Shown: in pieces, positions 36,054-57,931 of the stretch | Layout of the letters: the number at the start of each line of letters is the position of its first letter | Position numbering within the stretch: position 1 is the first letter of the stretch | From: an uncultured Erythrobacter sp. | GTDB taxonomy: Bacteria > Pseudomonadota > Alphaproteobacteria > Sphingomonadales > Sphingomonadaceae | Length of the DNA stretch: 64,000 nucleotides | NCBI GenBank assembly: GCA_947495695.1 | Contig: CANLZP010000001.1 | Location: forward strand, 517,069-581,068 | Direction: 5' to 3' | The notes under the pieces: generated by a model | Told to the model about the DNA's origin: nothing | Seen by the model: the letters and a program-made list of their open reading frames with translations, nothing else | The model's database searches: none | Program-made: the position numbers and the translations under genes

Positions 36054-38192
36054 ATGGGCGTTGAAACACACCGCAGCTTCTGCCGTTTTTGCCATGCCAA
36101 TTGCGCAATGTTGGTCGATATCGAGGACGGCAAGGTCAAGGCCGTGCGAGGTGATCCTGAAGACCCCGAATATGGCGGCTATACCTGCATGAAGGGCCGC
36201 GAATTGCCCGATTCGCACAATTCAGAGCGCCGCTTGCACCACAGCCTCGTGCGCGATGCGAATGGCGAATTTCAGGAAACGCCGATGCAGGACGCGCTCG
36301 ACCATGTCAGCAGCGAAGTCCGCCGCATCATCGACAAATATGGGCCGGACAGCATTGCCCTGTTCATGGGATCGGGCGGTTATCAAAACAGTTCTGCGAT
36401 GATGGCCACGATGAGCTTGGCTCAAGCCATCGGCACCAAACACTTCTTTACATCGGTTACGCTGGACCAGCCGGCGAAGGTTTTCACCACTGAACGCTAT
36501 GGCAAATGGATGGGCGGAGTGAACAATTTCTCCACCGCCGATGTTGCTCTGTTTATCGGAAACAACCCCATCGTGTCGCACTATGCGCCAGTTGGCGGAG
36601 TTCCACCCTTCTCGCCCTCCAAACGCATTCGCGAGCGTAAGAAAGAAGGCCTGAAGCTGATCGTGGCCGATCCTCGCTTGGCAGAAGTGGGCCAGCTGGC
36701 CGACATTTACCTGCCGGTTAAGCCGGGCGAAGACCCAGCGCTGCTGGCTGGGATGCTGAACGTAATCTTCGATGAAGAGCTGTATGATCGCAATTTCGTG
36801 TCCGCCCATGTCGATGGCTTGGACGAATTGAAAGATGCCGTGGCCAGCTTCACGCCTGACGTAGCTGCAGAGCGGGCTGGCGTTGAAAAAGATCAATTGG
36901 TTGCGGCCGCGCGGATGTTTGCCAATGGTTCGAAAGGCTGCGCGGTAACCGGCACCGGTCCCGAAATGGCGGGCAATGGTACACTGACCGAATATCTGGT
37001 GACCTGCCTCAACACTGTTTGCGCGCGCTTTAAGCAAGAAGGCGAGCAATGCGGCGTGCCAGGCGTCTTCACCGTCCAGCAGGGCGAAAAGCGGGCCCAA
37101 GTGGCACCGCCTGCGCCGATGTTCGGCGTCGAAGGCATGGCCAAATCGCGCTTCCGCGGACTGGGCCAATTGCTATTTGAAATGCCCTGCAACGTCATGG
37201 CCGATGAAATTCTCACCCCAGGCGAAGGCCAGATCCGGGCGCTGATCTCGGTTGGCGGCAATCCTGAAGTGGGCTTTCCCAACCAATTGAAAATGCGCCG
37301 AGCGCTGGATGATCTAGAACTGTTTGTGCAGATCGATCCGTGGATGAGCGCGAGCGCCAAACGGGCCGACGTTGTGCTGGCTCCCAAGCAATGCCTGGAG
37401 CGTGAAGACATCACCAATCTGTCAGAATGGTGGCACGAACGCGCCTATGCCCGTTACACCGAAGCGCTGGCAGAGGCTCCGGGCGATGTCATCGACGAAT
37501 ATGAAATGATGTGGAACATTGGCCATCGTCTGGGTGTGCAAATGAAACTGCCCGGCGGCGATGTCCCGATGGATGAATGCCCCAGCAAACAGGAATTCCT
37601 CGATCTGATGGTTGCAGGTTGCTTGGTGCCACCCAGCCAAGTGCGCGCTGATGCGGCAAAGGCTGGCGGAGCCGCGGTGATTTACGAAGATCTGCATCCC
37701 ATTATCGAAGCAGCCGATCCAGAATCCTATCACCGGTTCCAACTGGCTGCGGGCGACATGCCCCAGCAGTTGGAGAAATACAGTGCCGATGATGCGCGCG
37801 CCGCCGGATTTGATTTCCGCCTGATCTCGCGCCGGTCCAAACACCGGTTCAACTCCATCGGTCAGCCGCTGGAAAAACTGGGCCGCAAGGTGACAACCAA
37901 CCCGGCCTATATCCATCCCGACGACATGGCCGAGCAGGGATTGAGCGATGGTGACGTGATTGAAATCACATCGCCCCACGCATCAATCCACGGTGTTGTC
38001 GCAGCCAGCGACCGGGTCCGGCGCGGGCTGATTTCCATGGCGCATGCCTTTGGCGATAGCGAAGCTGGAAAACACAATGTGCGCGAAATGGGCGGTTCGA
38101 CCAATCGCCTGACCAGCGACGAGGTGGATTACGATCCGATCACCGGCCAGGCCCTGCAAAGCGCCATTCCGGTCAAGATCGCCGCTGCCTAA
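36054..38192 (+). CDS. Bis-MGD molybdopterin oxidoreductase with N-terminal [4Fe-4S] site
   Basis: 712 residues, in the range of the catalytic subunits of formate dehydrogenase/nitrate reductase-type enzymes. The N-terminal [4Fe-4S] ligands are Cys10, Cys13, Cys17 and Cys45. The C-terminal molybdopterin dinucleotide-binding domain holds NPAYIHPDDMAEQG and the closing GGSTNRLTSDE. There is no Tat signal, so the enzyme is cytoplasmic. No electron-transfer subunit or chaperone gene is adjacent, while mobA lies 1.1 kb upstream. Substrate unknown; oxidation of a formate-like or hydroxylated intermediate is possible. A start after AAAAGGATCGAG is reasonable. Confidence 0.9.
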   Translation: MGVETHRSFCRFCHANCAMLVDIEDGKVKAVRGDPEDPEYGGYTCMKGRELPDSHNSERRLHHSLVRDANGEFQETPMQDALDHVSSEVRRIIDKYGPDSIALFMGSGGYQNSSAMMATMSLAQAIGTKHFFTSVTLDQPAKVFTTERYGKWMGGVNNFSTADVALFIGNNPIVSHYAPVGGVPPFSPSKRIRERKKEGLKLIVADPRLAEVGQLADIYLPVKPGEDPALLAGMLNVIFDEELYDRNFVSAHVDGLDELKDAVASFTPDVAAERAGVEKDQLVAAARMFANGSKGCAVTGTGPEMAGNGTLTEYLVTCLNTVCARFKQEGEQCGVPGVFTVQQGEKRAQVAPPAPMFGVEGMAKSRFRGLGQLLFEMPCNVMADEILTPGEGQIRALISVGGNPEVGFPNQLKMRRALDDLELFVQIDPWMSASAKRADVVLAPKQCLEREDITNLSEWWHERAYARYTEALAEAPGDVIDEYEMMWNIGHRLGVQMKLPGGDVPMDECPSKQEFLDLMVAGCLVPPSQVRADAAKAGGAAVIYEDLHPIIEAADPESYHRFQLAAGDMPQQLEKYSADDARAAGFDFRLISRRSKHRFNSIGQPLEKLGRKVTTNPAYIHPDDMAEQGLSDGDVIEITSPHASIHGVVAASDRVRRGLISMAHAFGDSEAGKHNVREMGGSTNRLTSDEVDYDPITGQALQSAIPVKIAAA

Positions 38193-38214: not shown

Positions 38215-39225
38215 ATGCCTGATAACCGGCGCTTCCTACTCCAGCGTCGCCCCGATGGCGAGCCGGTGCCCGAGGATTTTGAGCTCGTTACCGAACCAAC
38301 GCCAGAGTTGGCCGAGGGCGAGTTTTTGATCCGCAATCACTATGCCTCGCTCGATCCAGCGATGCGTGGATGGATGGATGCAGGGGGCAATTACATGCCG
38401 CCAGTTCCTCTGGGAACTGCCATGCGGGCCAGCACCATCGGCGTGGTTGAGGAAAGCCGGGCAGAAGGCTTCGAGAAGGGCCAATGGGTGATGGGTCTCA
38501 ATGCGCTGGAGGATTATTCGATCAGCCAGATCGGCGGATTTACCCAACCAATTGATCCCAATCTGGTCCCGAGCATCACGAACTATCTATCAATCTTTGG
38601 TGCCGTCGGCATGACCGCCTATTTCGGCTTTCTTGAAGTGTGCGAGCCCAAAGAGGGAGACACAGTGCTGGTATCCGGCGCCGCAGGAGCGGTTGGATCG
38701 CTGGTTGGGCAGCTGGCCAAATTGCATGGGTGCCGGGCGGTGGGCATTGCTGGCGGGCCGGAGAAATGCGCCCGACTGACCGAGAAATACGGGTTCGACG
38801 CTGCGATTGATTATCGCGGCAAGGACGAGGCAGCGCTGACTGCAGCTATTGCAGAGGCTGCGCCGAATGGCGTCGATGTAATCTTTGAAAATGTTGGTGG
38901 GGCAATCCTTGATGCGGGGTTGATGAACCTCAACCTCTATGCCCGCGTCGGACTGTGCGGCTTGATCAGCGAATACAACACCGATGCCGTTGGCGCGCGC
39001 AATTTGTGGAATTTGATTGTGACGCGGTCGTCCATTCGCGGCTTGCTGGTGATGGATTTCGTTGAGCGCTTCCCTGAAGGCGCAGCCAAAATGGGTGAAT
39101 GGGCAGCAGCCGGCAAACTCTCCATTGACGAACATGTCGACGAAGGGCTGGAAAACGCCTTTGAGGGCTTCATGCGTCTGTTTGCCGGAACCAATGACGG
39201 CAAGATGATCCTGAAGATCGCTTGA
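38215..39225 (+). CDS. MDR-family NADP-dependent oxidoreductase (3)
   Basis: 336 residues. YASLDPAMRGWM, VSGAAGAVGSLVGQLAKLHG and FENVGGAILDAGL place it with MDR 1 and 2. AAPNGVDV is a shared segment. It starts 22 bases after the molybdopterin oxidoreductase with a good AAAAGGAAA ribosome site and overlaps the following ThuA gene by one base (TGATG), so the genes from 36 to 40.4 kb form one unit. Confidence 0.88.
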   Translation: MPDNRRFLLQRRPDGEPVPEDFELVTEPTPELAEGEFLIRNHYASLDPAMRGWMDAGGNYMPPVPLGTAMRASTIGVVEESRAEGFEKGQWVMGLNALEDYSISQIGGFTQPIDPNLVPSITNYLSIFGAVGMTAYFGFLEVCEPKEGDTVLVSGAAGAVGSLVGQLAKLHGCRAVGIAGGPEKCARLTEKYGFDAAIDYRGKDEAALTAAIAEAAPNGVDVIFENVGGAILDAGLMNLNLYARVGLCGLISEYNTDAVGARNLWNLIVTRSSIRGLLVMDFVERFPEGAAKMGEWAAAGKLSIDEHVDEGLENAFEGFMRLFAGTNDGKMILKIA

Positions 39226-40004
39226 TGAAAAGCCTGCTCGTTCTCTCTGGTGGTCATGCCTATGAGCGCGAGCCCTTTGACCAATTGCTTGGATCATTGG
39301 GTGACTGGGGCATCACCCATTTGATGCATCCAGAGGCAGAGGAAGCGGTCGCCGATGGGCGAGCGATGGACGCCGATGCGGTGCTGTTTTACGATATGGG
39401 CGGATACACTTTTGCTGACGATTGGGTGACATCGCGCCCACCAAGCGAAGCCTTTCGCAAAGCCATCATGGATCGTTTCGCAGCCGGACGAGGCGCGGTA
39501 GCGATGCACCATGCCTTGGCGGGGTGGGCAGATTGGCCCGAATGGCACGAAATGCTGGGCGGGCGGTTCCTCTATACACCGGGCGAAGTGCGCGGAAAGA
39601 AAGTGCTCGATTCGGGCTATCGCCATGATGTCGAATACAGTGCTCAGGTGGTTGCCGATCATGCTGTGACGATGGGTCTTCCCGAAAACTTCACCGTGAC
39701 CGACGAGCTATATCTGGCAGAAATATTTGAACAGGATGTCAATCCGCTGATCCGGTCAGATTATGATTTTACGCGTGACAATTTCTATTCTGCCGCGCTG
39801 GGCATTTCCGGCACGCTGTATTCGCGCGAGGGGTGGGATCACCCTCCTGCCAGCAATCTTGTCGCCTGGCATAAAACCATCGGCCCCGAGCAAGCGCCGC
39901 TGGTCTATTTGCAATTTGGCGATTCGCCGCAAACCTACGCCAATCCGCATGTGCGCCAGACATTGGCCAATTCGCTCAACTTTATCGCAGGAGAAAACCC
40001 GTGA
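39225..40004 (+). CDS. ThuA-like domain protein (1)
   Basis: 259 residues with a flavodoxin/class I glutaminase-like fold. LLVLSGGHAYEREPFDQLL, then ADAVLFYDMGGYTF, RGAVAMHHALAGWADWPEW and LYLAEIFEQDVNPLI give the ThuA-like pattern. The usual catalytic Cys of glutaminases is absent. ThuA-fold proteins have been linked to trehalose uptake and sugar-related catabolism, but the reaction is unknown. The gene is sandwiched between a reductase and an NTF2-like gene with overlaps at both ends, which argues for a catabolic function. Confidence 0.83.
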   Translation: MKSLLVLSGGHAYEREPFDQLLGSLGDWGITHLMHPEAEEAVADGRAMDADAVLFYDMGGYTFADDWVTSRPPSEAFRKAIMDRFAAGRGAVAMHHALAGWADWPEWHEMLGGRFLYTPGEVRGKKVLDSGYRHDVEYSAQVVADHAVTMGLPENFTVTDELYLAEIFEQDVNPLIRSDYDFTRDNFYSAALGISGTLYSREGWDHPPASNLVAWHKTIGPEQAPLVYLQFGDSPQTYANPHVRQTLANSLNFIAGENP

Positions 40005-40381
40005 CACCGATGGAAACTATCACAGCCTTTATCGCAGCTTGGGACGAATTTGATCTGGAGAAGATTTATTCGTTCATGGCGGATGATATCGTTTGGGAAG
40101 ACGTGCCGCTGTCCACCGTCACCGGGATCGATCAAGTGCGCGCGAAAATGGACGGATTCCCGGGCGTTGAGGCCGCTGGCTTTGACACACACCATATCGC
40201 CGCCAACGGGAATGTCGTACTGACAGAGCGGACCGATTGGTTCCAAATGAAGGGCCGCCGCCGCACAATCCGGGTGATGGGCACGTTTGAGCTGAACGAT
40301 GAAGGGAAGATCGCGAAATGGCGCGATTACTTCGATATTGCCGAATTCCAGCGCGAGTTTGGCGATCTGGCAGAAGGATAA
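40001..40381 (+). CDS. Limonene-epoxide-hydrolase-like NTF2-fold protein (5)
   Basis: 126 residues. TPMETITAFIAAWDEFDLEKI, MADDIVWEDVPLSTVTG and the ending GKIAKWRDYFDIAEF match limonene-1,2-epoxide hydrolases. The Asp of WRDYFD and an Arg in the preceding strands are in the positions of the hydrolase active site, so this is the best-supported NTF2 enzyme in the window. GTG 40001 overlaps the ThuA stop in a GTGA junction. Confidence 0.82.
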   Translation: MTPMETITAFIAAWDEFDLEKIYSFMADDIVWEDVPLSTVTGIDQVRAKMDGFPGVEAAGFDTHHIAANGNVVLTERTDWFQMKGRRRTIRVMGTFELNDEGKIAKWRDYFDIAEFQREFGDLAEG

Positions 40382-40511: not shown

Positions 40512-41750
40512 ATGAACAAGCCGCAAAGTAATATGTTTGCTCCGGAAACGCTGGTCGATCCGTTTGAGCATTATCGCCAGGTGCATGAAGCTGGAATCAA
40601 GATCGAGCATCTGCCCGAGATGAACACTTTCGTAGTCTATGGATATGATCTGTGTTCCGAGGCGACCGGCCGGCCCGAGGTCTTTTCCAACGACTTCACG
40701 GCGTTGATGGGTGCCGATGATGACGAAATCAAAGAGATCCTGGCCGAAGGTTGGGACAATCCACCCACTTTGCTGACCGCCGACCATCCCGTGCACACAC
40801 GCAACCGCAAGCTCGTCAATCTGGCTTTCTCGGCCCCGCGTGTGAACGCAATTGAAGAGGATATGCGCGTCAAATCAATCGAATTGATCGAGAAGATGCT
40901 GGAGAAGAATTCTGGCGACTTTGTCGAAGATTTTGCGATTCCGTTGCCCGTTGCAATGATCGCTCAGCAGATTGGCCTGGATAATGATCCCAAGCAGGTG
41001 AAAGCCTGGTCTGATGCAGCGGTTGATCGGTTCAGCCAATTGGTGGACCGCGAACGCCAGCTGGAATGCGCTCGGAGCTTTGTTTCGTACCAGAAATATA
41101 TGAAGGGCTTGATCGATGACCGCCGGGCCAATGGCGGCGATGATCTGTTGACTGATCTGGTCGAAGCGCGGGTCGAAGGAGAAACCCCGCTAACCGATGA
41201 AGAGATCATTTCGATCATGCAGCAATTCATGGTCGCTGGTAATGAAACCACTACCAGCACAATTGCTGGCGGTTTGTTGCAATTGATCCGCAATCCAGAT
41301 CAGATGGCAAAAGCCAAGGAGGCAGCCGGTGGCCGCAATCCCAAGCTGATTGGCAATCTGGTGGAAGAAGCTTTGCGCTACGAAACACCAACCGCAGGTA
41401 TGTGGCGGCTGGTCAAGGAAGACACGACTTTGGGCGATACGCAAATTCCGCAAGGGGCGATGGTCCAGCTGCGTTATGCTGCGGCCAATCGCGATCCATC
41501 CAAGTTCGAAAACCCCGACAAGTTTGATATCGAGCGCAAGAATGCCCGCGCACATCTGGCGTTTGGCAAGGGCCCGCATATGTGCGTCGGCAACATGCTG
41601 AGCCGCAAGGAAATGCTGGTTGCCTTTGACGAGCTTCTGGAGCGCCTTGATGATTTCGAGATCGCCGACGAAGACGGCATAGCCGTCCTGCCCAACATCC
41701 TGCTGCGCGGCGTGACAAAGCTTCCCATCCGCTACAAGGCTGCAGCATGA
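40512..41750 (+). CDS. Cytochrome P450 (2), first gene of the igr-like operon
   Basis: 412 residues. The I-helix AGNETTT has Glu245-Thr246. ExxR is Glu286-Arg289, and the heme loop FGKGPHMCVG carries Cys358. It starts the gene run that continues to 47.2 kb and overlaps the acyl-CoA dehydrogenase gene in an ATGA junction. In the actinobacterial igr operon the P450 is CYP125, which oxidises the sterol side-chain terminus; by analogy this one might make the acid later processed by the run. A GTTAGG...CCTAAC repeat lies upstream at 40401-40438. Confidence 0.93.
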   Translation: MNKPQSNMFAPETLVDPFEHYRQVHEAGIKIEHLPEMNTFVVYGYDLCSEATGRPEVFSNDFTALMGADDDEIKEILAEGWDNPPTLLTADHPVHTRNRKLVNLAFSAPRVNAIEEDMRVKSIELIEKMLEKNSGDFVEDFAIPLPVAMIAQQIGLDNDPKQVKAWSDAAVDRFSQLVDRERQLECARSFVSYQKYMKGLIDDRRANGGDDLLTDLVEARVEGETPLTDEEIISIMQQFMVAGNETTTSTIAGGLLQLIRNPDQMAKAKEAAGGRNPKLIGNLVEEALRYETPTAGMWRLVKEDTTLGDTQIPQGAMVQLRYAAANRDPSKFENPDKFDIERKNARAHLAFGKGPHMCVGNMLSRKEMLVAFDELLERLDDFEIADEDGIAVLPNILLRGVTKLPIRYKAAA

Positions 41751-42823
41751 ATTTCGACCTGTCAGAAGAGCAGGAGCTGTTCACCTCTACTGTTGACCGC
41801 TTCACAAGCCAGATCGACGTGGAAACGCGCCACAAGATCCGTGGTCTTGATGGTGGGTATGATACTTCACGCTGGAGTGAATTGGCAGAGCTGGGCCTCG
41901 TCGCCTTGGCGACCGACGAAGACAGCGGTGGAATGGGCGGCTCGCCGCTTGATCTGGCCCTGGTAGGCGAGGCCTTAGGCCGCAACATCGCACCTGACCC
42001 ATGGTTGGAAAATGGTGTTGTGCCGGCGCGCATCTTGGCCGCCGCCGGTGCGGAAGGCATGCTGGAATCGGTGCTTTCGGGCGAGCAATTTGTGAGTTTT
42101 GCCTGGGCGGAACGAAATCAGCGTTACAGCCTGCAGGCCAAGCAAACGAAAGTTAGCGGCCGTGCGATCAATGGTCAGAAAACCTTCGTCTTGGGCGCCG
42201 GTATGGCCGATGCCTTCCTGGTTACTGCCGATGATGACGGGGCCACCAAAATCTATTTGATTCCCGCCGATCGGGCTGGCTTGGATGTGCGGCAATATCG
42301 TCTGGCTGACGGATCCATCGCCGGCGAATTGCAATTCAACAATGTCGCGATTGAAGATGGCGATAGGCTGGACCTGTCATCGGATGATTTACCACCTATC
42401 ATTGCTACCGCACGCCTTCTGGCTGCTGCCGAGATGGTGGGCCTTGGCCAACGCTTGTTGGATGACACATTGGCTTACGTCAAAGAACGAGAGCAATTCG
42501 GCACGGCGATTGGCAGTTTTCAGGCCCTGCAACACAGGCTGGTCGATTGTTATTCCAAGATCGAGCAGGCCCGTTCGATGCTGTATCGCGCCGCCATGGT
42601 GGATCCATCCGATGGTGCCGCATTGAGGCGCAGCAGCGCGGGGGCAAAAGCCTATATCGGCGAGGCGGTGGACCACGTGGCGCGCGAGGCCGTTCAATTG
42701 CATGGAGGAATGGGTATCACCGACGAATTGACCATCGGGCACGCAATGAAGCGGGTTCTCTTGCTCAACCGTCTGTTCGGAGACACCAGCACCTCGCTCA
42801 CCGAATTTGCTCAGGCCGCATAA
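41747..42823 (+). CDS. Acyl-CoA dehydrogenase, apparently non-catalytic subunit
   Basis: 358 residues, short for the family. The N-terminal helix (LSEEQELFTSTVDRF), REQFGTAIGSFQALQHRL and the FAD-contacting LHGGMGITDE are normal. The C-terminal segment is RLFGDTSTSL where active enzymes have YEGT, and the alternative helix-G position (ATARLLAAAEMVG) also lacks a Glu. This fits the non-catalytic subunit of the alpha2-beta2 dehydrogenases known from steroid side-chain degradation (ChsE/FadE pairs). The likely partner is the dehydrogenase at 45980. Confidence 0.85.
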   Translation: MNFDLSEEQELFTSTVDRFTSQIDVETRHKIRGLDGGYDTSRWSELAELGLVALATDEDSGGMGGSPLDLALVGEALGRNIAPDPWLENGVVPARILAAAGAEGMLESVLSGEQFVSFAWAERNQRYSLQAKQTKVSGRAINGQKTFVLGAGMADAFLVTADDDGATKIYLIPADRAGLDVRQYRLADGSIAGELQFNNVAIEDGDRLDLSSDDLPPIIATARLLAAAEMVGLGQRLLDDTLAYVKEREQFGTAIGSFQALQHRLVDCYSKIEQARSMLYRAAMVDPSDGAALRRSSAGAKAYIGEAVDHVAREAVQLHGGMGITDELTIGHAMKRVLLLNRLFGDTSTSLTEFAQAA

Positions 42824-42833
42824 GGAAATAGGC

Positions 42834-43262
42834 ATGAACGCATTGGCCCCTATCGACCCACAATTGTGGAGTTCCGGAGACCAGCCGCATCTGATGGGCG
42901 GCAAGCTGGCATCGGGCGAAATTGTCTTTCCTATGCCGCAAGGTGATGCGGCAAATGATGTCGAGCCATACCAGCTTTCGCGCGTGGGCACTTTGTGGTC
43001 ATGGACCAGCCAAGGCTTTCTTCCCAAAGAACCTTATGAAGGACCCGGTTCAGGTGAGAATGAAGGTCCGCCGGATTTTGAACCGTTCCTGATCGGCTAT
43101 GTTGAACTGCCGGGCGAGGTGATCGTGGAAAGCCGCATTGTCGATGCAACGCTGGACGATCTGGAACTGGGTATGGCGATGGAATTCTGCATCGTGCCGT
43201 TCAACAAGACCCATTCAACCTACGCCTTCCGACCCCAAAAATTGGCGGAGAAAGCCGCATGA
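42834..43262 (+). CDS. DUF35/OB-fold protein with degenerate zinc ribbon
   Basis: 142 residues from ATG 42834 (AAGGAAATAGG upstream). The C-terminal OB-fold part (IGYVELPGEVIVESRI, then LELGMAMEFCIVPF) matches DUF35 proteins, which bind thiolase-like aldolases. The N-terminal rubredoxin-like zinc ribbon normally has four Cys; here the region GGKLASGEIVFPMP has none, so zinc is probably lost. In the igr operon DUF35 is fused to a MaoC hydratase (ChsH2); here it is a free protein. Overlaps the Ltp-like gene in an ATGA junction. Confidence 0.82.
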   Translation: MNALAPIDPQLWSSGDQPHLMGGKLASGEIVFPMPQGDAANDVEPYQLSRVGTLWSWTSQGFLPKEPYEGPGSGENEGPPDFEPFLIGYVELPGEVIVESRIVDATLDDLELGMAMEFCIVPFNKTHSTYAFRPQKLAEKAA

Positions 43263-44428
43263 GCGAGAATGTCTATATCATCGGCGCGGGGATTCACCCC
43301 TTTGGCCGAACCGAAGGTCGTTCCGGCCGTGAACAAGGCGTCTATGCCGTGCGCAAGGCCTTGGCTGATGCCGGTTTGGAGTGGAAAGATATCGAATGCG
43401 CCTATGGCGGATCGTCCGCGGCGGGCAGCGCCGATATCATGGTCAACGAACTGGGGCTGACCAGCCTGCCCTTCACCAATGTCGCCAATGGCTGCGCCAC
43501 CGGTGGCAGCGCGCTGGTCTCTGCCCAATTGGCGATCGCCAGCGGCATGTATGATCTGGCCTTGGCAACCGGTTTTGACAAGCATCCGCGCGGCGCCTTC
43601 AATGCTAAGCCAGCTGATTATGGTCTGCCCGAATGGTATGGCCAAACCGGCATGATGCTGACGACGCAATTCTTTGCAATGAAGATCCAGCGGTACATGC
43701 AATTGCATGGCATCAGCCGGACGACTTTGGGCCGGGTCGCGGAAAAAGCATTCCGCAATGGCACCAAAACACCGCACGCCTGGCGGCGCAGCCCGATTGA
43801 TCTGGAAACGATCATGAATGCTCCGATGATCAATGATCCGCTGACCAAATATATGTTCTGCAGCCCGTCAGAAGGCGGAGTGGCATTGATCTTGGCGAGC
43901 GAGAAGAAGATGCGCGAGCTGGGAGCAGACGGGGTCAAAATCTCCAAGGTGGCGGTTAAAACCCGGCCACCTGACAGCTTCGAAGTATTCCAAGCCGGTG
44001 TCAGCGTGAACGAGGGCGGAAAGCCCACCATGCTGGCCAGCCAAGCCGCTTTTGAAGGCGCGGGCATTGGCCCGGAAGATATCGATGTCGCTCAATTACA
44101 AGACACCGAAAGCGGCGCGGAAATCATGCACATGGCCGAGAACGGCTTTTGTAAGGATGGCGAGCAGGAAGAATGGCTGGCCAATGGCTGGTCCGAGCAA
44201 GATGGCAAGCTGCCGATCAACACCGACGGCGGCTGTATTGCCTGCGGCGAGCCTGTTGGCGCGTCGGGCCTGCGGCAAGTGTATGAAAATGTCGAACAAT
44301 TGCGCGGCCGCGCTGGTGAACGGCAAGTTGCCGGGCGGGACGGAAATGGGCCCAAGACCGGCTACAGCCATGTCTATGGCGCACCGGGCGTGTCGGCAGT
44401 GGCCATTCTGGAACGTTTAGGAAACTGA
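43259..44428 (+). CDS. Ltp/SCP2-thiolase-like protein, probable DUF35-dependent aldolase or lyase
   Basis: 389 residues with the thiolase fold. Cys79 (NGCATGGSAL) is at the nucleophile position. The usual GHP-GATG block is altered to GEPVGASG (330-337), so the catalytic His is Glu331. The C-terminal Cys of thiolases is replaced by HVYGAPG. This pattern matches the lipid-transfer-protein group (Ltp2 type) that cleaves beta-hydroxyacyl-CoA by retro-aldol reaction with a DUF35 partner. Pairing with the preceding gene supports that function. Confidence 0.86.
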   Translation: MSENVYIIGAGIHPFGRTEGRSGREQGVYAVRKALADAGLEWKDIECAYGGSSAAGSADIMVNELGLTSLPFTNVANGCATGGSALVSAQLAIASGMYDLALATGFDKHPRGAFNAKPADYGLPEWYGQTGMMLTTQFFAMKIQRYMQLHGISRTTLGRVAEKAFRNGTKTPHAWRRSPIDLETIMNAPMINDPLTKYMFCSPSEGGVALILASEKKMRELGADGVKISKVAVKTRPPDSFEVFQAGVSVNEGGKPTMLASQAAFEGAGIGPEDIDVAQLQDTESGAEIMHMAENGFCKDGEQEEWLANGWSEQDGKLPINTDGGCIACGEPVGASGLRQVYENVEQLRGRAGERQVAGRDGNGPKTGYSHVYGAPGVSAVAILERLGN

Positions 44429-44432
44429 AATT

Positions 44433-45215
44433 ATGACCACATCAATGGGCCGCATGGAAGGCAAAGTCGCACTGGTTACCGGCGGGGCCGAGGGTATTGG
44501 CGCAACGGTAGGCCGCATGATCGTTGAGCAAGGCGGCAGCGTTATGCTGTGCGATATCCAGATCGACAAAGCGCGCGCGCTGGCCGAGGAGTTGGGCAGC
44601 AATGCCGATGCCTGCCAGCTGGATGTGCGCGATCTGGATCAATGGCATGCCGCGGTTAAGGCAACCACCAACCGCTTCGGCAAATTGAACGTGCTGTGCA
44701 ATATCGCCGGCATATCTGAACCGGGCAATGTGGTGGATGGCACGCTGGATGTGTGGGAACGCACCATCGATATCAACCTCAATGGTCCCTATTACGGTTG
44801 CCGTGCCGCGCTGCCTGCGATGGAGGCCAATGGGGAGCCGGGCGCAATTGTGAACATCGGCTCGATGATTGCGATCCGTGCCGCATCCTTTGTGGCAGCC
44901 TACAGCGCGTCCAAAGCCGGGTTGCTGGGTCTGACCCGCTCGATCGCGCTGGATTGTGCAGAGCGCGGCGTTCCGATACGCGCCAATATGGTTCACCCCG
45001 GCGCTATCCGCACACCGATGTATAACCGCTACAAACATTCTGGCGCTGACGAACCCGAGAATATCGAGCGCGACTTTGCCGCAACCCATCCGATGAATCG
45101 CATTGGCGAACCCGAAGAAGTAGCCAAGGCTGTCGTCTTCCTGGCCAGCGATGACGCCAGTTTCACCACCGGAGTCGACTTTACAGTCGATGGCGGCGGC
45201 AGCATCAGGAGCTAA
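44433..45215 (+). CDS. SDR-family oxidoreductase
   Basis: 260 residues. TGGAEGIG at 16-23 and the catalytic Tyr157-Lys161 (YSASK) with Ser144 are present. NNAG is NIAG. CDIQ after the second strand suggests NAD. It sits between the Ltp-like and ThuA genes with four-base spacing from the former. Oxidation of a hydroxyacyl or released aldehyde/ketone product is a plausible job. Confidence 0.9.
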   Translation: MTTSMGRMEGKVALVTGGAEGIGATVGRMIVEQGGSVMLCDIQIDKARALAEELGSNADACQLDVRDLDQWHAAVKATTNRFGKLNVLCNIAGISEPGNVVDGTLDVWERTIDINLNGPYYGCRAALPAMEANGEPGAIVNIGSMIAIRAASFVAAYSASKAGLLGLTRSIALDCAERGVPIRANMVHPGAIRTPMYNRYKHSGADEPENIERDFAATHPMNRIGEPEEVAKAVVFLASDDASFTTGVDFTVDGGGSIRS

Positions 45216-45219
45216 GCCG

Positions 45220-45975
45220 ATGTCTCAACAACCAGCTCAACGGATTGACGCCCACTTTGTGGCTGCGGGCAAATATCATGACATTGATTACGCCCGGCTC
45301 GAATTGCTCAAGCTGCTGATGGAGCAGCCCCATATTCGCACCACAGTGGCGGCCGATTATTCAGGGCTGGAGCGGCTCGACCAATGCCGCTTTCTGATCA
45401 CCTATACCTGCGATCTGGTGCCGACGCCCGAACAGGCGCAGCAGATCAAGGCATGGCTGGAGGCCGGGGGCAAATGGCTTGCCCTGCATGGCACCAATTC
45501 CATTTTGGTGTTCACCGAAGAAGGTTTGGTGGATGCGCCTGATGACCGGCCCGATTTTATGGAGCTGGTCGGCACCCAATTCAAAGCTCACCCGCCGATC
45601 GGCCAATTCGCCGTTGAAGTGGTCAACAAGACGCATGAATTGTCCAAAGGGATCGACGATTTCGAGATTGTCGACGAGCTGTATTTGTCGAACACCACCG
45701 CCCCGATCGACATTTTGATGCAGACGACTTTCGAAGGGGAAGCGACCGGTTTCGTCACAGCCGATTGGGAGAAAACCACCGTCCCCATTCTGTACACGCG
45801 CGATATTGGCAAGGGCCAGATCGTCTACAATGCGCTGGGTCATTGCCGTGGGCATTATGACCTTCCTGGGATGCAAGACTTCTATCCGCACAAGGAAATG
45901 TGCGCGTGGAGCTATGACGTCTATTATGATTTATTGCGCCGAGGGATTGCCTGGGCGATGAGAGAGGAGGTCTGA
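45220..45975 (+). CDS. ThuA-like domain protein (2)
   Basis: 251 residues from ATG 45220. FLITYTCDLVPTPEQAQQIKAWLE, GGKWLALHGTNSI and LYLSNTTAPIDILM, with the HCRGHYDLPGMQD end block, match ThuA-like proteins. It is longer in its strand-helix core than ThuA 1 and shares only the general fold with it. A ThuA gene inside an acyl-CoA/aldolase operon is unusual. It may handle a sugar-like or carbonyl intermediate; no reaction can be named. Confidence 0.83.
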   Translation: MSQQPAQRIDAHFVAAGKYHDIDYARLELLKLLMEQPHIRTTVAADYSGLERLDQCRFLITYTCDLVPTPEQAQQIKAWLEAGGKWLALHGTNSILVFTEEGLVDAPDDRPDFMELVGTQFKAHPPIGQFAVEVVNKTHELSKGIDDFEIVDELYLSNTTAPIDILMQTTFEGEATGFVTADWEKTTVPILYTRDIGKGQIVYNALGHCRGHYDLPGMQDFYPHKEMCAWSYDVYYDLLRRGIAWAMREEV

Positions 45976-45979
45976 GACT

Positions 45980-47188
45980 ATGGATATGGATTTCTCAGCC
46001 GAGGACCTCGCGTTTCGCGATGAAGTCCGCACGTTTTTGGCCGAAAACCTGCCCGAGCATCTGAGGGACGGCGCACGCCGCACTCCCGGTGTGTTTGTGG
46101 AGCCGGACATTGGCATGGAATGGCATCGCATCCTGAACAAGCAGGGTTGGGTCGCATATCATTGGCCCAAGGAAGATGGCGGCACCGGCTGGACCCCGAC
46201 GCAAAAATTTATCTTTGAAAAAGAATGCGCACTGGCGGGCGCTCCGTCCATATCGATCCTTGGCTTGCGGCTGGTGGGACCGGTGATCTGCGCCTTCGGT
46301 ACGCCCGAGCAAAAGGCGCGCTTCTTGCCGCGCATCCTGTCGGGCGAAGATTATTGGTGCCAAGGCTATTCTGAACCGGGTAGCGGATCAGATTTGGCCT
46401 CGCTGAAGACCAGCGCGCGGCTGGAAGGTGACACATACACAGTCAACGGCTCCAAGATCTGGACCACGCATGCGCATCACGCTAACTGGATCTTCGCATT
46501 GGTGCGGACCAACACCGAGGTGAAGAAACAGCAAGGCATTACGTTCCTGTTGTTGCCGATGGATCAACCGGGCGTTGAAGTGACCCCGATCATGTCCATG
46601 TCGGGCGATCACGAAGTCAATCAGGTGTTCTTCTCTGACGCGCAAACCGGTGTCGAAAACCGGATTGGCGATGAAGGCCAGGGCTGGACCATTGCGAAAT
46701 ATCTGCTCGAAAACGAGCGCGGTGGCTCTTGCTATGCTCCGCGCCTGATCCAATCGATCGAGAAGCTGACGGATTTGGCGGAAACCCAGCCTTCTGGCGT
46801 CAATGGCGCGGTGGCCCATGATTTGCGCTTCCGTGACCGTTTGTCGCGTGCGCGGCTGGAGGCCGAGGCGTTGGAAGTGACCGAATTGCGCATTCTGGCA
46901 GAATTGGCACAAGGCCGTCAGCCTGGTCCGCAAACCTCTCTGGTCAAATTGCTCGGTTCAAACTTGGGCCAAGAGATCGACACGCTGCGGCTGGAATTGT
47001 TGGGCCTGGATGCCTTGCAACTGCCGCTTGATCGGCCGCTGTATGGCAATGAGGCGCCGGAACCTGTGGGCAGCGAAGTAGCTCAGGTGGCGATGGGCAA
47101 ATATCTCAACAATCGGGCCTCGACCATCTTTGGTGGATCGGACGAAGTGCAAAAGAACATCATCGCAAAAACGGTGTTGGGACTCTAG
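45980..47188 (+). CDS. Acyl-CoA dehydrogenase, probable catalytic partner subunit
   Basis: 402 residues. GYSEPGSGSDLASLKT and the C-terminal ASTIFGGSDEVQKNII are family segments. The YEGT Glu is replaced (FGGS), but Glu244 and Glu246 in LLENERGG lie in the helix used by ChsE4-type enzymes for their catalytic base, so activity is likely. Together with the short 41747 subunit it could form an alpha2-beta2 enzyme. It ends the run that began with P450 2, four bases after the ThuA gene. Confidence 0.88.
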   Translation: MDMDFSAEDLAFRDEVRTFLAENLPEHLRDGARRTPGVFVEPDIGMEWHRILNKQGWVAYHWPKEDGGTGWTPTQKFIFEKECALAGAPSISILGLRLVGPVICAFGTPEQKARFLPRILSGEDYWCQGYSEPGSGSDLASLKTSARLEGDTYTVNGSKIWTTHAHHANWIFALVRTNTEVKKQQGITFLLLPMDQPGVEVTPIMSMSGDHEVNQVFFSDAQTGVENRIGDEGQGWTIAKYLLENERGGSCYAPRLIQSIEKLTDLAETQPSGVNGAVAHDLRFRDRLSRARLEAEALEVTELRILAELAQGRQPGPQTSLVKLLGSNLGQEIDTLRLELLGLDALQLPLDRPLYGNEAPEPVGSEVAQVAMGKYLNNRASTIFGGSDEVQKNIIAKTVLGL

Positions 47189-47236: not shown

Positions 47237-48865
47237 TCAGCCCAAAGTTTCGTCGGCCAACCGTTGCGCAGCCTTATAGTCAGGCTTGCCATTGTTCAGC
47301 CGCAGCGATTGCTGGGTGAACAGATAAACGCGCGGTATCTTATAGCCGGCCAGATTGTTGCGGGCGGTTTCGTCTAGCGCTTCTTGCAAGCCTTCATCAT
47401 CTTTTTCAGGCTGAACTACCGCGACAACTTTGCGCCCAAAGCGCTGGTCAGGCAGGCTGACCACACGGGCATCGCGCACCCGCTCGTGCGCTTGCAAGAC
47501 GCTCTCAACTTCTTCGGGAAATACCTTTTCGCCGCCGGTATTGATGCACATATTGTCGCGGCCAATAAATTCCAGGGTGCCATCCGCAGCCCAGCGTGCT
47601 TGATCGCCAGTCATCAGATAGCGCACACCGTCGATGGTCGGGAATGTCTCGGCGTTTTTCTTGTCCTCGCCAAGGTATCCCAGCGGCAGCGGTCCTGACC
47701 GAGCGACCACGCCGATCCCATCACTGCCCGGTTTCACCTCTTGCAATTGAGCGTCGAACAGTTTGGTTGAGCGCCCGGGGATGGCGGAGAATTTGCCTCC
47801 TCCGGAGGAGCCTTTTGCGGTTGTGATGATAATGGCTGTGCCCGAACTCTCGCTCGATCCCAAGGCATCCACAACGGCCATATTCTGATTGTGCGCGATC
47901 AGCCGGGTTTTGTTGCCTTCGGAGAATACTGCACCCGAGGAGATGATACTGCGTAGGCTCGCAATCGTGTCCGCCGCATTGTCGCGCGCATCAAGCGCAT
48001 CAGCCAAAGGCAAAGCAAATGCATCGCCCACCACAAACAAGGTGCGCGCTTTGATTCTGTGCACTTCATCCAGAGCGGTATCGGCATCAAACTTGGGCGC
48101 AGGCAATGTCGCCAAAGTCCCGCCCTTGAGCAGATGAATAACTGCTGTAAATTGGCCCGCGCCATGCATCAGCGGGCTGAGCAAAAGCATGGGCGAACTG
48201 GACGCAGGGCTATCGGGTCCGATCCGCACTGCTTCGTTGACCTGGTCTTCCAATGAGGTCGCAACAAATGGAGGCTCTCCTGGACCGCGCTGCCACACCG
48301 ACACGCTGAACGCGCCCCACGCCTCGTTAAACGGCCACATCACCGCCTTGGGCATTCCCGTGGTTCCGCCGGTCGCGGTCAAAAACAGCGCGGCAGGATC
48401 TTCATGCACGCTGAAGTCTGATGGCAATGGGGTGGATTGAAGATCGCCCCAAAGGCCATCCGTGTCCCCAACATCAATCACCAGCGCATCGCCGCCGGGC
48501 ATGGCGTTGGCCGCTCGCTCGGCAAAATCAGCTTCGGCAAACACAGCCTTCAATCGAAACCGGGTGAAGATGTCCGCCAGCTCTGTGTCCTGGTAATGAT
48601 AGTTTACATTGACCGGGGTGACGCCTGCTTTGACGCAGCCGAAATAGGCAAGCATGTAATCAGGGCTGTTGCGCAACATCTGCCCGGCGATTTCGCCCGG
48701 CTTCAGACCTGCCTGCTGCAGGCCAGCTGCAATGCAATCGGTGAGCCGGTCCAGCTCTGCCCAGCTGACAGTTCTATCGCCATGAACAAGCGCGGGCCGC
48801 TCAGGCTCAATCGCCTGCGCCAAATGTTTAAGGGCATATCCGAAATTGTCGCCGCGCCATGTCAT
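47237..48865 (-). CDS. AMP-dependent acyl-CoA ligase (2)
   Basis: 542 residues. TATGGTTGMPKAVMWP is the P-loop-like motif, FSAIPGRSTKLFD precedes the hinge-region TGDQARWAADGTLEFIGRD, and the catalytic Lys lies in the C-terminal RLNNGKPDYKAAQR. It activates an acid to its CoA thioester and is a natural feeder for the neighbouring acyl-CoA dehydrogenase/aldolase run. Sequence differs clearly from ligase 1, so a different acid is likely. It is convergent with that run and diverges from the LuxR-type regulator gene. Confidence 0.91.
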   Translation of the reverse strand: MTWRGDNFGYALKHLAQAIEPERPALVHGDRTVSWAELDRLTDCIAAGLQQAGLKPGEIAGQMLRNSPDYMLAYFGCVKAGVTPVNVNYHYQDTELADIFTRFRLKAVFAEADFAERAANAMPGGDALVIDVGDTDGLWGDLQSTPLPSDFSVHEDPAALFLTATGGTTGMPKAVMWPFNEAWGAFSVSVWQRGPGEPPFVATSLEDQVNEAVRIGPDSPASSSPMLLLSPLMHGAGQFTAVIHLLKGGTLATLPAPKFDADTALDEVHRIKARTLFVVGDAFALPLADALDARDNAADTIASLRSIISSGAVFSEGNKTRLIAHNQNMAVVDALGSSESSGTAIIITTAKGSSGGGKFSAIPGRSTKLFDAQLQEVKPGSDGIGVVARSGPLPLGYLGEDKKNAETFPTIDGVRYLMTGDQARWAADGTLEFIGRDNMCINTGGEKVFPEEVESVLQAHERVRDARVVSLPDQRFGRKVVAVVQPEKDDEGLQEALDETARNNLAGYKIPRVYLFTQQSLRLNNGKPDYKAAQRLADETLG

Positions 48866-49012: not shown

Positions 49013-49822
49013 ATGGTGGCTAAAGTCGTAGAATTGCGCACGCCGCAAGGTCGGGAAAATCTGGACGAGTTGCTCGAGGCAGTGACAATCCGATGTCCGG
49101 AAGACATCCATGACGCCGCCGTAGCCTTGGCTAGGCTGGGTCAAGAGCGAGGAATGCAGGTCGCGATCTGCGATGACATCTCTTCGAAAGAGCCCATCAC
49201 AGACGCCGATGGTACGATTTTGAACGCCGATATTTTCCGCTGGTTGGATGATGGTGCTCGGTGGTGGGAAGATCACCGTTTGGCGCTGCATTCACCCGTG
49301 CCGCGCGCATGCCGTTATGAAAGCGAGCCGTTCTGGGTCAATGAACAGGGTTTCAACACACGCTGGCCCAATTCTTACCTCGACGAAATAGACCTGAGCG
49401 ATTTTGAAAAGCGTGCGCTTTGCAAAGCAGCGATCGTCATCCCGGTGCATCTGCCCTTTGGCCAGATTTCGGCCAACAGCTTCATCAGCATGGACCGCAG
49501 CCAAGAAGATCTGTCCGAGGAATTCGCCGAATATGGTTCGTTGTTCGCACAAGTGACGCGGCGCTTTGTGGCCGGATATGTTCAAGCGATCCGAACCAAA
49601 CGACGCATCCCGTCGGATTGCGTTTTGTCCAAGCGTGAGGTCGAGTGCTTGCGCTGGGCAGCGATTGGCAAAACCGACCGCGAGATCAGCATGATCCTGG
49701 AACGCAGCCACGCCACGATCCGCTATCATGTTCACCGCGCTGGCGAGAAGCTGGACAGCGTCAATCGCGCGCAGACCATCTTCAAAGCCGGTCAGTTGGG
49801 ATATCTGGGCGCATCTTCTTGA
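49013..49822 (+). CDS. LuxR-type transcriptional regulator (solo, unassigned sensor)
   Basis: 269 residues. The C-terminal HTH (about 202-265) reads LSKREVECLRWAAIGKTDRE, then a TIRYHVHRAGEKL recognition region, typical of LuxR. The N-terminal 190 residues lack the standard acyl-homoserine-lactone residues I would expect (no W..Y...Y..D pattern). No luxI-type gene is seen. It probably senses a pathway compound and regulates adjacent genes. Its promoter region is shared with the divergent CoA ligase gene. Confidence 0.88.
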   Translation: MVAKVVELRTPQGRENLDELLEAVTIRCPEDIHDAAVALARLGQERGMQVAICDDISSKEPITDADGTILNADIFRWLDDGARWWEDHRLALHSPVPRACRYESEPFWVNEQGFNTRWPNSYLDEIDLSDFEKRALCKAAIVIPVHLPFGQISANSFISMDRSQEDLSEEFAEYGSLFAQVTRRFVAGYVQAIRTKRRIPSDCVLSKREVECLRWAAIGKTDREISMILERSHATIRYHVHRAGEKLDSVNRAQTIFKAGQLGYLGASS

Positions 49823-50493: not shown

Positions 50494-51933
50494 ATGAACG
50501 AGATCAAGAAAATCACCCCGAATGAAGGTGGCCGCGAAGATCGTTGCCCCGGGATGACCTACACCGACATGCTGAACGGCGACACGCGCACGCCGCCTGA
50601 TTATTTGTTCGAAGAAACAAATATCGACATGCCGAATGATCCGCTTGAGATTGAGCCTTATGTGAGCGAAGAATTCGCCAAGCTCGAGCGCGAAAAACTG
50701 TGGCCCAATGTGTGGTTGTTTGCCGCCCGCGAAGACGAGCTGCCCGACACTGGCGACACGGTTGTGTTCGAGATCAACGACAACAGCTTCCTGATCACCC
50801 GACAGGCCGATGGCAGCGTCCGGGCATTCTACAATGTCTGCCTGCATCGGGGTCGCAAGCTGCGGACCGAAAATGGCACAACCACCCAATTCCGTTGCCC
50901 GTTCCATGGCTTCACCTGGAAGACCGATGGCACGCTGAAGGAAATCCCGTGTGATTGGGACTTCAAGCATCTGGAAGACAAGGACATGAGCCTGCCCGAA
51001 GCCCGCGTTGAGCTGTGGCAGGGCTTTGTCATGATCACCGAAAACCATGATCTGCCAGATTTCAAAACCTGGCTGGGTCCGGCGGCTTCGCATTATGACA
51101 ATTACAATATGGAAGATCGCTACACTGGCATGTGGGTGGCGCGGAAAATTCCGGCCAATTGGAAGGCAACCGCAGAAGCCTTTATGGAGGCGTGGCATTC
51201 CATCACCACGCACCCGCAATTGCTGCCATTCCTGGGCGATGCCAATTCCCAATACGATCTGATCGGCGATCATTTCAATCGGGCCATCACCCCGTCAGGT
51301 GTGCTTAGCCCGCATTTGAAGGGCAAGACGCAGCAATATGTGCTCGACAAAATGGCCGAATTTTCCGGCGGATCCGATGCGGAAACCAACCGCCGCTATG
51401 CCGCCAGTGAAGAAAAGGTAGATCTGGACGAAAGCGATCCGTTGCAAGCTCGCAAATTGCTTGCCGAGGCAAGCCGGGCCGGTTTCAAAGAGGCCTATGG
51501 CCACGATTATTCAGACAAATCCGATTCCGAAATTCTGGATAATTTTACCTACAATATCTTCCCCAATTTCTCGCCATGGATCGGCTATCTGCCCACGCTA
51601 TGTTATCGTTGGCTGCCGGGCGACACCGCCGATTGGTGCGTGATGGAAATCCGTCTGCTGTTCCCCACAGCCAAGGGTGAAAAGCGCCCCCGCGCGGTGG
51701 AGAAAGTGACCATCCCCGAAGATCAACCCTGGGCCTGGGCCAAGGATGTGATGGGCGAAGCGCTGGCCAGCGTGTTCGATCAGGATATGGCCAATCTGCC
51801 ACATGTCCAAACCGGTATGAAAGCATCGGCCAATGGCATTATGGAGCTGGGCGCCTATCAGGATAGCCGGGTCCGTCATTTCCAGACGACGCTGAAGAAA
51901 TACATCAATGGCGAATTGCCCGCCAAGGGCTGA
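50494..51933 (+). CDS. Rieske non-heme iron oxygenase, alpha subunit (3)
   Basis: 479 residues, the longest of the four, because of an N-terminal extension of about 40 residues and an insertion around 290-340. Rieske ligands are Cys116, His118, Cys135 and His138 (CLHRG, CPFHGF). The iron site is His235 and His240 in MEAWHSITTH. No beta subunit, ferredoxin or reductase is adjacent. It is followed 26 bases later by an SDR, matching oxygenase-plus-dehydrogenase logic. Confidence 0.93.
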   Translation: MNEIKKITPNEGGREDRCPGMTYTDMLNGDTRTPPDYLFEETNIDMPNDPLEIEPYVSEEFAKLEREKLWPNVWLFAAREDELPDTGDTVVFEINDNSFLITRQADGSVRAFYNVCLHRGRKLRTENGTTTQFRCPFHGFTWKTDGTLKEIPCDWDFKHLEDKDMSLPEARVELWQGFVMITENHDLPDFKTWLGPAASHYDNYNMEDRYTGMWVARKIPANWKATAEAFMEAWHSITTHPQLLPFLGDANSQYDLIGDHFNRAITPSGVLSPHLKGKTQQYVLDKMAEFSGGSDAETNRRYAASEEKVDLDESDPLQARKLLAEASRAGFKEAYGHDYSDKSDSEILDNFTYNIFPNFSPWIGYLPTLCYRWLPGDTADWCVMEIRLLFPTAKGEKRPRAVEKVTIPEDQPWAWAKDVMGEALASVFDQDMANLPHVQTGMKASANGIMELGAYQDSRVRHFQTTLKKYINGELPAKG

Positions 51934-56944: not shown

Positions 56945-57931
56945 TTACGCCTTGCCGACCGATGCCTTGATCTGGGCGATCATGTCGGACTTTTGCGGGA
57001 TCCAGGCTTGTTCCAGATGGGTAGCAAATGGCACTGCCGAGAATGTTCCCCCGATCCGACGCACCGGACCCTTGAGGCTATCCCAGCATTTTTCCTGTAT
57101 ATTTGCGGCAATTTCTGCGCCTGTACCGAAAGGTTTCACCGCTTCATGCAGAGTAATCGCGCGGCCCGTTTTGCGAACAGAAGCCAGCACAGTTTCCTCG
57201 TCATAAGGGGCAATGGTGCGCAGATCGATGACCTCGACGCTGATGCCTTCCTTATCGAGCTCGCCAGCGATTTCCATCGCATCCAACACGGTGCGGCCAT
57301 AGGTGATCAGCGAGATATCGCTGCCTTCGCGCGCTACGGCAGCTTTGCCCAAGGGAACGCGATATCCTGGTCCCGGGTCTTCGCTCGTCAGGCCGTAGCA
57401 CAGGATGTTCTCGATGAAGATCACCGGATCATTGGCATCGATGGCAGAGCGCATCAGTCCGCGCGCATCAGCCGCATTGCTGGGCGTTACCACATGGATA
57501 CCGGCGACATGGGCGAACCAGGCCTCCAACATGTCAGAGTGCTGACCACCAAAGCCGACACCCACGCCAGTGGTGGTGCGCAGCACCATCGGACACGGGG
57601 TTTGCCCACCCGACATAAAGCGCAATTTCGCGGCGTGATTGACGATCTGGTCCATGCAAACGCCAACAAAGTTCATCAACATGATTTCGCAAATCGGGCG
57701 CTGTCCCGCCAGCGCGGCACCAACCGCAGCACCAACAATGGCGGTCTCGGAAATAGGCGTCGCGCGGATGCGGTGTTCGCCATATTTCTCGGTCAGTCCT
57801 GCGGTGACTTTGAACACTCCCCCGCCCTGCTTGGCCGACACGTCTTCGCCCAAGCAGAACACGCCATCATCTTCGGCCATAGCTTCATCAATGGCGAGGT
57901 TGAGCGCCTGCGTCATGGTAATTTCGGCCAT
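56945..57931 (-). CDS. Thiamine-diphosphate-dependent dehydrogenase E1 component, beta subunit
   Basis: 328 residues. MTQALNLAIDEAM, GEDVSAKQGGGVFK, the PISE motif (ATPISETAIVGAAVG) and CYGLTSEDPGPGYRVPLGKA are standard for E1beta of the pyruvate/acetoin/branched-chain group. It pairs with the E1alpha gene in a TGATG junction. Acetoin or a 2-oxo acid is the likely type of substrate; sequence alone does not distinguish them. Confidence 0.92.
   Translation of the reverse strand: MAEITMTQALNLAIDEAMAEDDGVFCLGEDVSAKQGGGVFKVTAGLTEKYGEHRIRATPISETAIVGAAVGAALAGQRPICEIMLMNFVGVCMDQIVNHAAKLRFMSGGQTPCPMVLRTTTGVGVGFGGQHSDMLEAWFAHVAGIHVVTPSNAADARGLMRSAIDANDPVIFIENILCYGLTSEDPGPGYRVPLGKAAVAREGSDISLITYGRTVLDAMEIAGELDKEGISVEVIDLRTIAPYDEETVLASVRKTGRAITLHEAVKPFGTGAEIAANIQEKCWDSLKGPVRRIGGTFSAVPFATHLEQAWIPQKSDMIAQIKASVGKA

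Follow-up and report, generated by a model that had tools for sequence, protein, structure and literature searches.

An invariant, altered active site in the thiolase-fold protein of a conserved DUF35-thiolase gene module from an uncultured Erythrobacter

The window analysed here, a stretch of 64,000 nucleotides from the genome (2.74 Mb) of an uncultured Erythrobacter sp. (contig CANLZP010000001.1), carries a compact gene run that includes a thiolase-fold protein and its DUF35 neighbour. A reading-frame scan confirmed seven open reading frames at 40512-47188 on the + strand, and profile matches assigned them to the cytochrome P450, short acyl-CoA dehydrogenase (ACAD), OB_ChsH2_C (DUF35), thiolase, short-chain dehydrogenase/reductase (SDR), ThuA and ACAD families, separated by junctions of -4, 10, -4, 4, 4 and 4 bases. 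The genes, families and tight spacing given in a preliminary description of this DNA are thus borne out, although not the extent, as the co-directional run is longer and comprises 11 genes from 36054 to 47188; the junctions of the four genes upstream of the P450 measure 22, -4, -4 and 130 bases, the last being the gap ahead of the P450. The ATG of the DUF35 gene is at 42834, and its scans were begun at 42837, one codon inside. The nearest locus belongs to an uncultured Erythrobacter, with 98% identity in the thiolase. The genes of the run are given below, the fractions being those of 54 sphingomonad-family loci with a match less than 9 kb from the thiolase-fold gene.

36054..38192, + strand: molybdopterin oxidoreductase (FdhF-like), first gene of the run, 52/54 loci
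38215..39225, + strand: CurA-like NADPH-dependent reductase, 52/54 loci
39222..40004, + strand: ThuA-domain protein 1, 43/54 loci
40001..40381, + strand: LEH/SnoaL-type NTF2-fold protein, 38/54 loci
40512..41750, + strand: cytochrome P450, by family match
41747..42823, + strand: short ACAD, beta-type, without catalytic Glu at the usual positions, by family match and alignment
42834..43262, + strand: DUF35 (OB_ChsH2_C) protein without zinc-finger Cys, the sole such match in the genome
43259..44428, + strand: thiolase-fold protein with C79, QDTE (281-284) and GEP (E331)
44433..45215, + strand: SDR, putative 3-hydroxyacyl-CoA dehydrogenase
45220..45975, + strand: ThuA-domain protein 2, predicted ThuA fold
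45980..47188, + strand: large ACAD, alpha-type, with Glu246

The surprise of the locus is the invariant altered active site of the thiolase-fold protein. Cys79, Gln-Asp-Thr-Glu 281-284 and Gly-Glu-Pro 330-332 are found in 99/99 aligned sequences (98 loci and the window) and again in 20 further sphingomonad loci; incomplete frames and rows of insufficient length were excluded from this count, as from the residue counts of the ACADs and DUF35 below. A plasmid search returned 19 clade records, 11 of which entered the residue check, the other eight being left out, and all 11 copies agree, Cys79 included, two actinobacterial ones having QDTD. The thiolase motifs HD[C/A]F and GHP occur in 0/99 clade sequences, while HD at the first site and GHP at the second are the rule among outgroup homologues (27 of 28), and 20 more homologues divide into 12 with HD/GHP, five YDxF types without the Cys and three with Glu at the GHP place. 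In one alignment of characterised enzymes, SCP2-thiolase has Cys, HDCF and GHP, and BbsB has Cys, HDAF and GHP; Ltp2 has YDHF and a Tyr at the GHP position without the nucleophile Cys, CtSal has YDCY and Gln at that position without Cys, and IpfD (from pIBU218) has YDAF without Cys. The set of Cys79, Gln281, Thr283 and Glu331 is unlike any of these five. The paired sites are Tyr294/Tyr344 in Ltp2 and Tyr302/Gln352 in Sal, as stated in the available part of PMC12329534, and the 50-residue spacing of Gln281 and Glu331 agrees with the Ltp2 and Sal numbering. For Sal, that source describes a Gly at the site of the nucleophile Cys; a review describes Sal1, Sal2 and their homologues as having no active Cys (PMC8399759).

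Similar residues also occur outside the clade, in four uncharacterised thiolase-like proteins. Two of 31-37% identity (L157 and L158) combine the Cys and GEP with QDTD or QDND, and the other two (L154 and L128) keep the Cys with a Glu at the GHP place (YDLS/GEA and ADNT/GEA). All four fall with the clade on an unstarred branch (support 92/94). For L157, haloarchaea are among the best plasmid matches. Among the Pfam and NCBIfam models used for naming the thiolase, NCBIfam gave matches below cut-off only.

A tree of 43 rows has a branch with 100/100 support that sets the 11 aldolase-type rows apart; the clade, with 16 rows, is on the other side of it, together with the thiolases. Placing the clade inside the Ltp2 rows was rejected by the approximately unbiased (AU) test (p-AU 8e-7), as was placing it with Ltp2 plus Sal (p-AU 3e-49), the groups of both tests having been picked after the tree was seen. 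The thiolase had been called "Ltp-like", a name that is not supported, because the aldolase residues are all missing from the protein, Cys79, which is absent from the aldolase-type rows, is retained, and its place in the tree is outside the Ltp2 clade. Its predicted structure (predicted template modelling score, pTM, 0.83; mean predicted local distance difference test, pLDDT, 73.9) matches SCP2-thiolase (Z 45.0), an archaeal DUF35-bound thiolase (44.7) and BbsB (43.8), then the acyltransferases PhlABC, MucABC and CsATase (40.5-42.2), Ltp2 (38.4) and Sal (36.9); by sequence, SCP2-thiolase reaches 156 bits, BbsB 147 and Ltp2 101.

As the standard thiolase residues are gone, hydrolysis or acyl transfer is a real rival to thiolysis: the protein would be an acyltransferase or a 3-oxoacyl-CoA hydrolase, in which Glu331 activates water or some other acceptor rather than CoA. 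The close rank of the three acyltransferases of the same fold is consistent with this, as are the DUF35 subunit that PhlABC possesses, according to the available part of PMC12329534, and the combination of Cys with Glu at the GHP place, unmatched in the five characterised enzymes aligned, among which there are no acyltransferases. Such Cys chemistry is nevertheless rather unlikely, considering that no third acyltransferase subunit is annotated beside the pair, no dedicated search for one having been made, and that the context looks degradative.

The clade (at least 66% identity) is present in 38/199 sampled genomes of the family, where the next match is at 38%, and in 2/398 genomes of a phylum draw, one being the window's own and both belonging to the same family. 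On plasmids, the copies of Streptomyces and Rhodococcus have 51-61% identity and that of Mycobacterium branderi 48%, this search covering plasmid records, with actinobacterial chromosomes outside it. Gene neighbourhoods were compared in four locus sets, given in this order hereafter: 54 sphingomonad-family loci, 20 other sphingomonads, 4 sphingomonad plasmids and 7 actinobacterial plasmids. The 54 are those of 80 loci with at least 8 kb on both sides, 26 being dropped for short flanks or a missing match. Neighbours were counted by tblastn at 1e-10 with few queries, in which paralogues may count and distant members may be missed, and many of the counted loci are close relatives. The DUF35 gene lies within 200 bp of the thiolase gene in 54/54, 20/20, 4/4 and 6/7 loci (84/85 in total), and each ACAD within 9 kb in 48/54, 18/20, 3/4 and 6/7. 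Within the same distance, ThuA2 is found in 47/54, 11/20, 2/4 and 0/7, a Rieske gene in 34/54, 11/20, 3/4 and 0/7, and the E1 alpha gene of a 2-oxo acid dehydrogenase in 6/54, 15/20, 3/4 and 0/7. The core of the module is the DUF35 protein, the thiolase-like protein and the ACAD pair, and the neighbours are exchangeable. The order is kept in other genomes, in agreement with the distinct module proposed earlier, and the locus is a real conserved cluster, a variant of the DUF35-thiolase kind and not the igr operon. An E2 match lies within 9 kb of the thiolase in 10/20 other sphingomonad loci and in 0/54 of the family loci.

Regarding the dehydrogenases, the helix-G base position of the short ACAD is A222, with M, A, V or I there in 51/65 sequences and no Glu, and its position of the medium-chain acyl-CoA dehydrogenase (MCAD) type is Gly345 in 65/65; we take these two positions to be the catalytic-base sites of known ACADs. 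The short ACAD had been described as lacking a base, and indeed no Glu stands at either usual position. In the large ACAD, Glu246 is kept in 70/70 sequences and aligns with Glu247 of 4x28_A. The nearest solved structures are 4x28_A and the 6wy8/6wy9 subunits for the large protein and 6wy8_A for the short one, with 4x28_D within its top four, and the alignments are consistent with a two-subunit enzyme having a single catalytic Glu. PimD and PimC, the pimeloyl-CoA dehydrogenase subunits, are the best NCBIfam models of the two ACADs, yet far below cut-offs (381/624 bits and 211/653). The P450 has 5gwe, 5xjn, CYP144, CYP142 and CYP125MRCA as nearest solved matches with scores alike, and is not specifically nearest to CYP125.

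The DUF35 protein matches the Pfam model OB_ChsH2_C with 39.3 bits (cut-off 27.1). The zinc-finger motif CxxC..CxxC is present in 0/95 of its sphingomonad orthologues, none of which has more than three Cys, and the zinc-finger Cys are present in the DUF35 partners of three loci (L176, L179 and L183). The two ThuA proteins match the Pfam ThuA model with 76.4 and 64.5 bits (cut-off 33.4); ThuA2 has 4jqs as its best Foldseek match and matches ThuA and GATase-like folds, and a sequence search for a solved ThuA relative gave one chance match and otherwise none.

The parallel drawn earlier with the igr operon (cyp125-fadE28-fadE29-chsH2-chsH1-ltp2) stands in part. Both share paired ACADs, a DUF35 partner beside a thiolase-fold enzyme and a P450 nearby, but the module has neither the MaoC genes nor the Ltp2 residues, belongs to a separate clade, and possesses extra SDR, ThuA, molybdenum-enzyme (Mo) and Rieske genes. 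Membership in igr was rejected on account of QDTE, GEP, Cys79 and the position outside the Ltp2 clade. As sphingomonad igr copies, the igr-like operon of Caenibius tardaugens and that of Novosphingobium ES2-1 p3 (L187) were taken for comparison. Primers for the C. tardaugens igr-like deletion are published in the part of PMC12882949 that could be consulted, and three of these sequences have matches, arranged as expected, in a single genome (G189). The igr-like thiolase of G189 has YDHF, Tyr and no Cys, with 577 bits to the solved Ltp2, while the ortholog of the thiolase-like enzyme, at 70% identity, lies 0.8 Mb from that operon, surrounded by DUF35, both ACADs, LuxR, ThuA, Rieske and E1 genes. 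It was therefore rejected that the published igr-like operon is this module, the two being 0.8 Mb apart and the YDHF protein there 24% identical. Around the C. tardaugens module, no match to the NTF2 proteins of the window and no Baeyer-Villiger motif was found. With NF005892 as a yardstick for Ltp2, there was no match over the cut-off in the control genomes.

MaoC lies beside Ltp2 in two (L187 and L188) of the three Ltp2-type plasmid loci viewed, and the third, L180 on pIBU218, has no MaoC annotated and a crotonase instead. With one MaoC query, MaoC was found within 9 kb of the module in 1/54, 0/20, 0/4 and 1/7 loci, the last match being the query's own source. Its absence separates the module from igr proper, not from every YDHF-type locus.

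Other known systems resemble the module in different parts. The benzoylsuccinyl-CoA thiolase BbsAB also has a stand-alone DUF35 protein with a Cys-thiolase, an SDR and an ACAD, its operon presumably containing BbsCD, BbsG and BbsH; however, BbsB retains HDAF and GHP where QDTE and GEP are found here. The type 1 SCP2-thiolase is the top match by structure and sequence and has the nucleophile Cys, while here HDCF is changed to QDTE and GHP to GEP, and a DUF35 partner is present. CtSal-Shy(DUF35) and IpfDE are likewise DUF35-thiolase-fold pairs, from the aerobic catabolism of cyclic acids, but with YDCY or YDAF and without the nucleophile Cys, Gln281 standing at the Tyr site here. An Ipf-type aldolase as the closest relative was rejected, as IpfD has YDAF and no Cys.

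Concerning the hydration step, neither MaoC nor ECH_1 (crotonase) has a match anywhere in the 64-kb window, in line with the absence of hydratases from the run stated earlier. Since nine ECH_1 and four MaoC matches lie elsewhere in the genome, hydration need not be encoded in the operon. A crotonase adjoins DUF35 in 3/7 actinobacterial loci (L176, L181 and L183, the first and last being near-copies); R. qingshengii J1-2 and Rhodococcus BH4 show the order dehydrogenase, crotonase, DUF35, thiolase-like, dehydrogenase, and a Streptomyces plasmid has a crotonase match at the same place, upstream of DUF35. On pIBU218, a second OB-fold/Ltp2-type pair (L180, 7703-10152; YDHF), apart from ipfDE, is immediately preceded by a crotonase and a CaiB-type gene. 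Because L180 has the same order with a YDHF enzyme, the crotonase neighbour favours hydration by a crotonase and is silent on thiolysis versus retro-aldol cleavage. In the operons of R. opacus and DMU1, the pair is accompanied by a separate protein of the YDCF type, which has a zinc-ribbon/OB partner of its own; this suggests that the YDCF-type protein and the thiolase-like pair do different steps there.

Hydration had also been tentatively attributed to the ThuA or NTF2-fold (LEH/SnoaL) proteins, an idea compatible with any reading of the cleavage. The LEH-type gene overlaps that of ThuA1 by four bases, and genes for NTF2, ester cyclase or polyketide cyclase proteins are annotated in 8/10 plasmid module loci (not in L174 and L178; 10-14 kb shown) versus 1/4 control thiolase loci (L187; not L188-L190), a small control with diverse proteins. 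The ThuA part of the idea is disfavoured, since no ThuA match lies within 9 kb in any of the seven actinobacterial loci; in addition, ThuA2 immediately follows the Rieske gene in nine loci (8 of the 20 other sphingomonads and pNL2), and its matches to ThuA and GATase-like folds also speak against this role. Taken as a whole, the idea is quite improbable, an NTF2-type enzyme as hydratase being its possible part.

The module probably serves the cleavage of C-C bonds in a bulky acid that contains a ring. In the favoured but tentative reading, held plausible though short of probable, it would be a catabolic module of the beta-oxidation type for a bulky, ring-bearing carboxylic acid, with C-C cleavage via acyl-Cys79. 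The gene set and its conservation, the active-site residues and the separation from Ltp2 and Sal are observed; the reactions, partner complexes and substrate class are what we infer from them. The P450, Mo and Rieske enzymes may perform the first oxidation, and the ligase the CoA activation; the two-subunit ACAD, with its base on the large subunit only, would then catalyse the alpha,beta-dehydrogenation, an unlinked crotonase or MaoC enzyme the hydration, and the SDR the formation of the 3-oxo group. The DUF35-bound thiolase-fold enzyme would finally cleave the C-C bond through acyl-Cys79 at the end of the beta-oxidation turn, with Gln281 and Thr283 perhaps in place of the His and Cys of HDCF. 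Judging from position, Glu331 may take the place of the GHP His as base and Gln281 may contribute to the oxyanion hole.

Several results weigh against this reading. All the HDCF and GHP thiolase residues are replaced, so that thiolysis is no safe inference, and pLDDT is below 50 at 324-331, the loop bearing Glu331, so that no active-site geometry is claimed. A tree in which the clade and every aldolase-type row share one side is not rejected (AU p 0.31). A crotonase lies within 9 kb in only 2/54, 1/20 and 1/4 sphingomonad loci, and the crotonase-DUF35 order, also present with the YDHF-type enzyme of pIBU218, makes this neighbour no argument for thiolysis.

The AU result and the pIBU218 order are likewise points for a retro-aldolase, which would cleave a beta-hydroxyacyl-CoA whose hydroxyl comes from a hydratase elsewhere or from the P450 or Rieske enzyme, as in the ibuprofen ipf pathway. 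The partner types of igr and ipf are shared (DUF35, paired ACADs, Rieske oxygenase and CoA ligase), and the ipf route, with CoA ligation, dioxygenation and then cleavage by ipfDE, without a hydratase step in the consulted portions of PMC9195938 and PMC11347016, shows a way in which an oxygenase acts first. Nevertheless, a retro-aldolase is unlikely, as the Tyr of YDHF/YDCY is missing and Cys79 retained, IpfD itself is of the aldolase type, two Rhodococcus plasmids already have a YDCF-type protein in the same operon, and the clade is neither in Ltp2 nor with Ltp2 plus Sal. The "retro-aldol" module of the preliminary description is for these reasons of residues and clade not supported.

A bolder reading, somewhat unlikely, sees in Cys79-Gln281-Thr283-Glu331 a new catalytic type on the SCP2-thiolase fold. 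It would catalyse a C-C reaction not yet assigned to this fold, such as a hydrolytic or water-adding cleavage uniting hydration and cleavage in one complex, and would be common to sphingomonads and actinobacteria, for cyclic compounds.

DUF35-thiolase pairs are being sorted by residues into thiolases, aldolases and acyltransferases, and this clade, found in two phyla and with its changed positions invariant in the sphingomonad copies checked, fits none of the five enzymes aligned. Hit lists of "Sal/Ltp2-like" proteins in sphingomonads may mix different enzymes; G189 (loci L136 and L151) has both the igr-like operon and this module. Substrate and mechanism are directly testable, since relatives occur in Caenibius tardaugens, for which a gene deletion is published (PMC12882949), and in Novosphingobium aromaticivorans DSM 12444 (pair SARO_RS18650-18655), a species with a gene-fitness study on record (PMC10725011). 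A literature search, with subscription papers outside it, found no paper on this module; a 2021 review, in its accessible section, calls the side-chain route of the bile-acid degraders of the family unknown (PMC8399759).

Beyond the 3' end of the run lie a CoA ligase on the opposite strand and genes for a LuxR-type regulator, a Rieske oxygenase and an SDR, along with a sugar-isomerase-like protein and a transporter. The flanking features with counts among the 20 other sphingomonad loci, and the ligase, are:

47237..48865, - strand: acyl-CoA synthetase, putative activating ligase
49013..49822, + strand: LuxR-type regulator, beside the module in 14/20 loci
50494..51933, + strand: Rieske oxygenase alpha subunit, near the module in 11/20 loci
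56945..58899, - strand: 2-oxo acid (or acetoin-type) dehydrogenase E1 beta and E1 alpha, E1 alpha in 15/20 loci

The module regulator of pNL2 (L174), SARO_RS18620 = Saro_3549, has 375 peaks by DNA affinity purification sequencing (DAP-seq) in a screen of 44 factors, as given in the available part of PMC12352068.

A phosphotransferase-family gene adjoins an ACAD in L175, L176, L178, L183 and L185, an arrangement reminiscent of the route for 4-hydroxyacyl-CoA that involves Lva (levulinate) and ACAD10/11. The run itself belongs to a catabolic island at 10288-62305, with four Rieske oxygenase alpha subunits (15291, 19335, 50494 and 61115), a second P450 (28440), a second CoA ligase (24643) and a TonB receptor (16774). 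Together with a KstD-like flavoprotein in the same island (29730-31349, - strand), these contents suggest cyclic isoprenoid or steroid-like compounds, without being decisive. The flavoprotein is one whose best solved match is the 3-oxosteroid 1-dehydrogenase 7p18, and whose NCBIfam matches, 4-oxocyclohexanecarboxylate 2-dehydrogenase and 3-ketosteroid-delta-1-dehydrogenase, are both below cut-offs.

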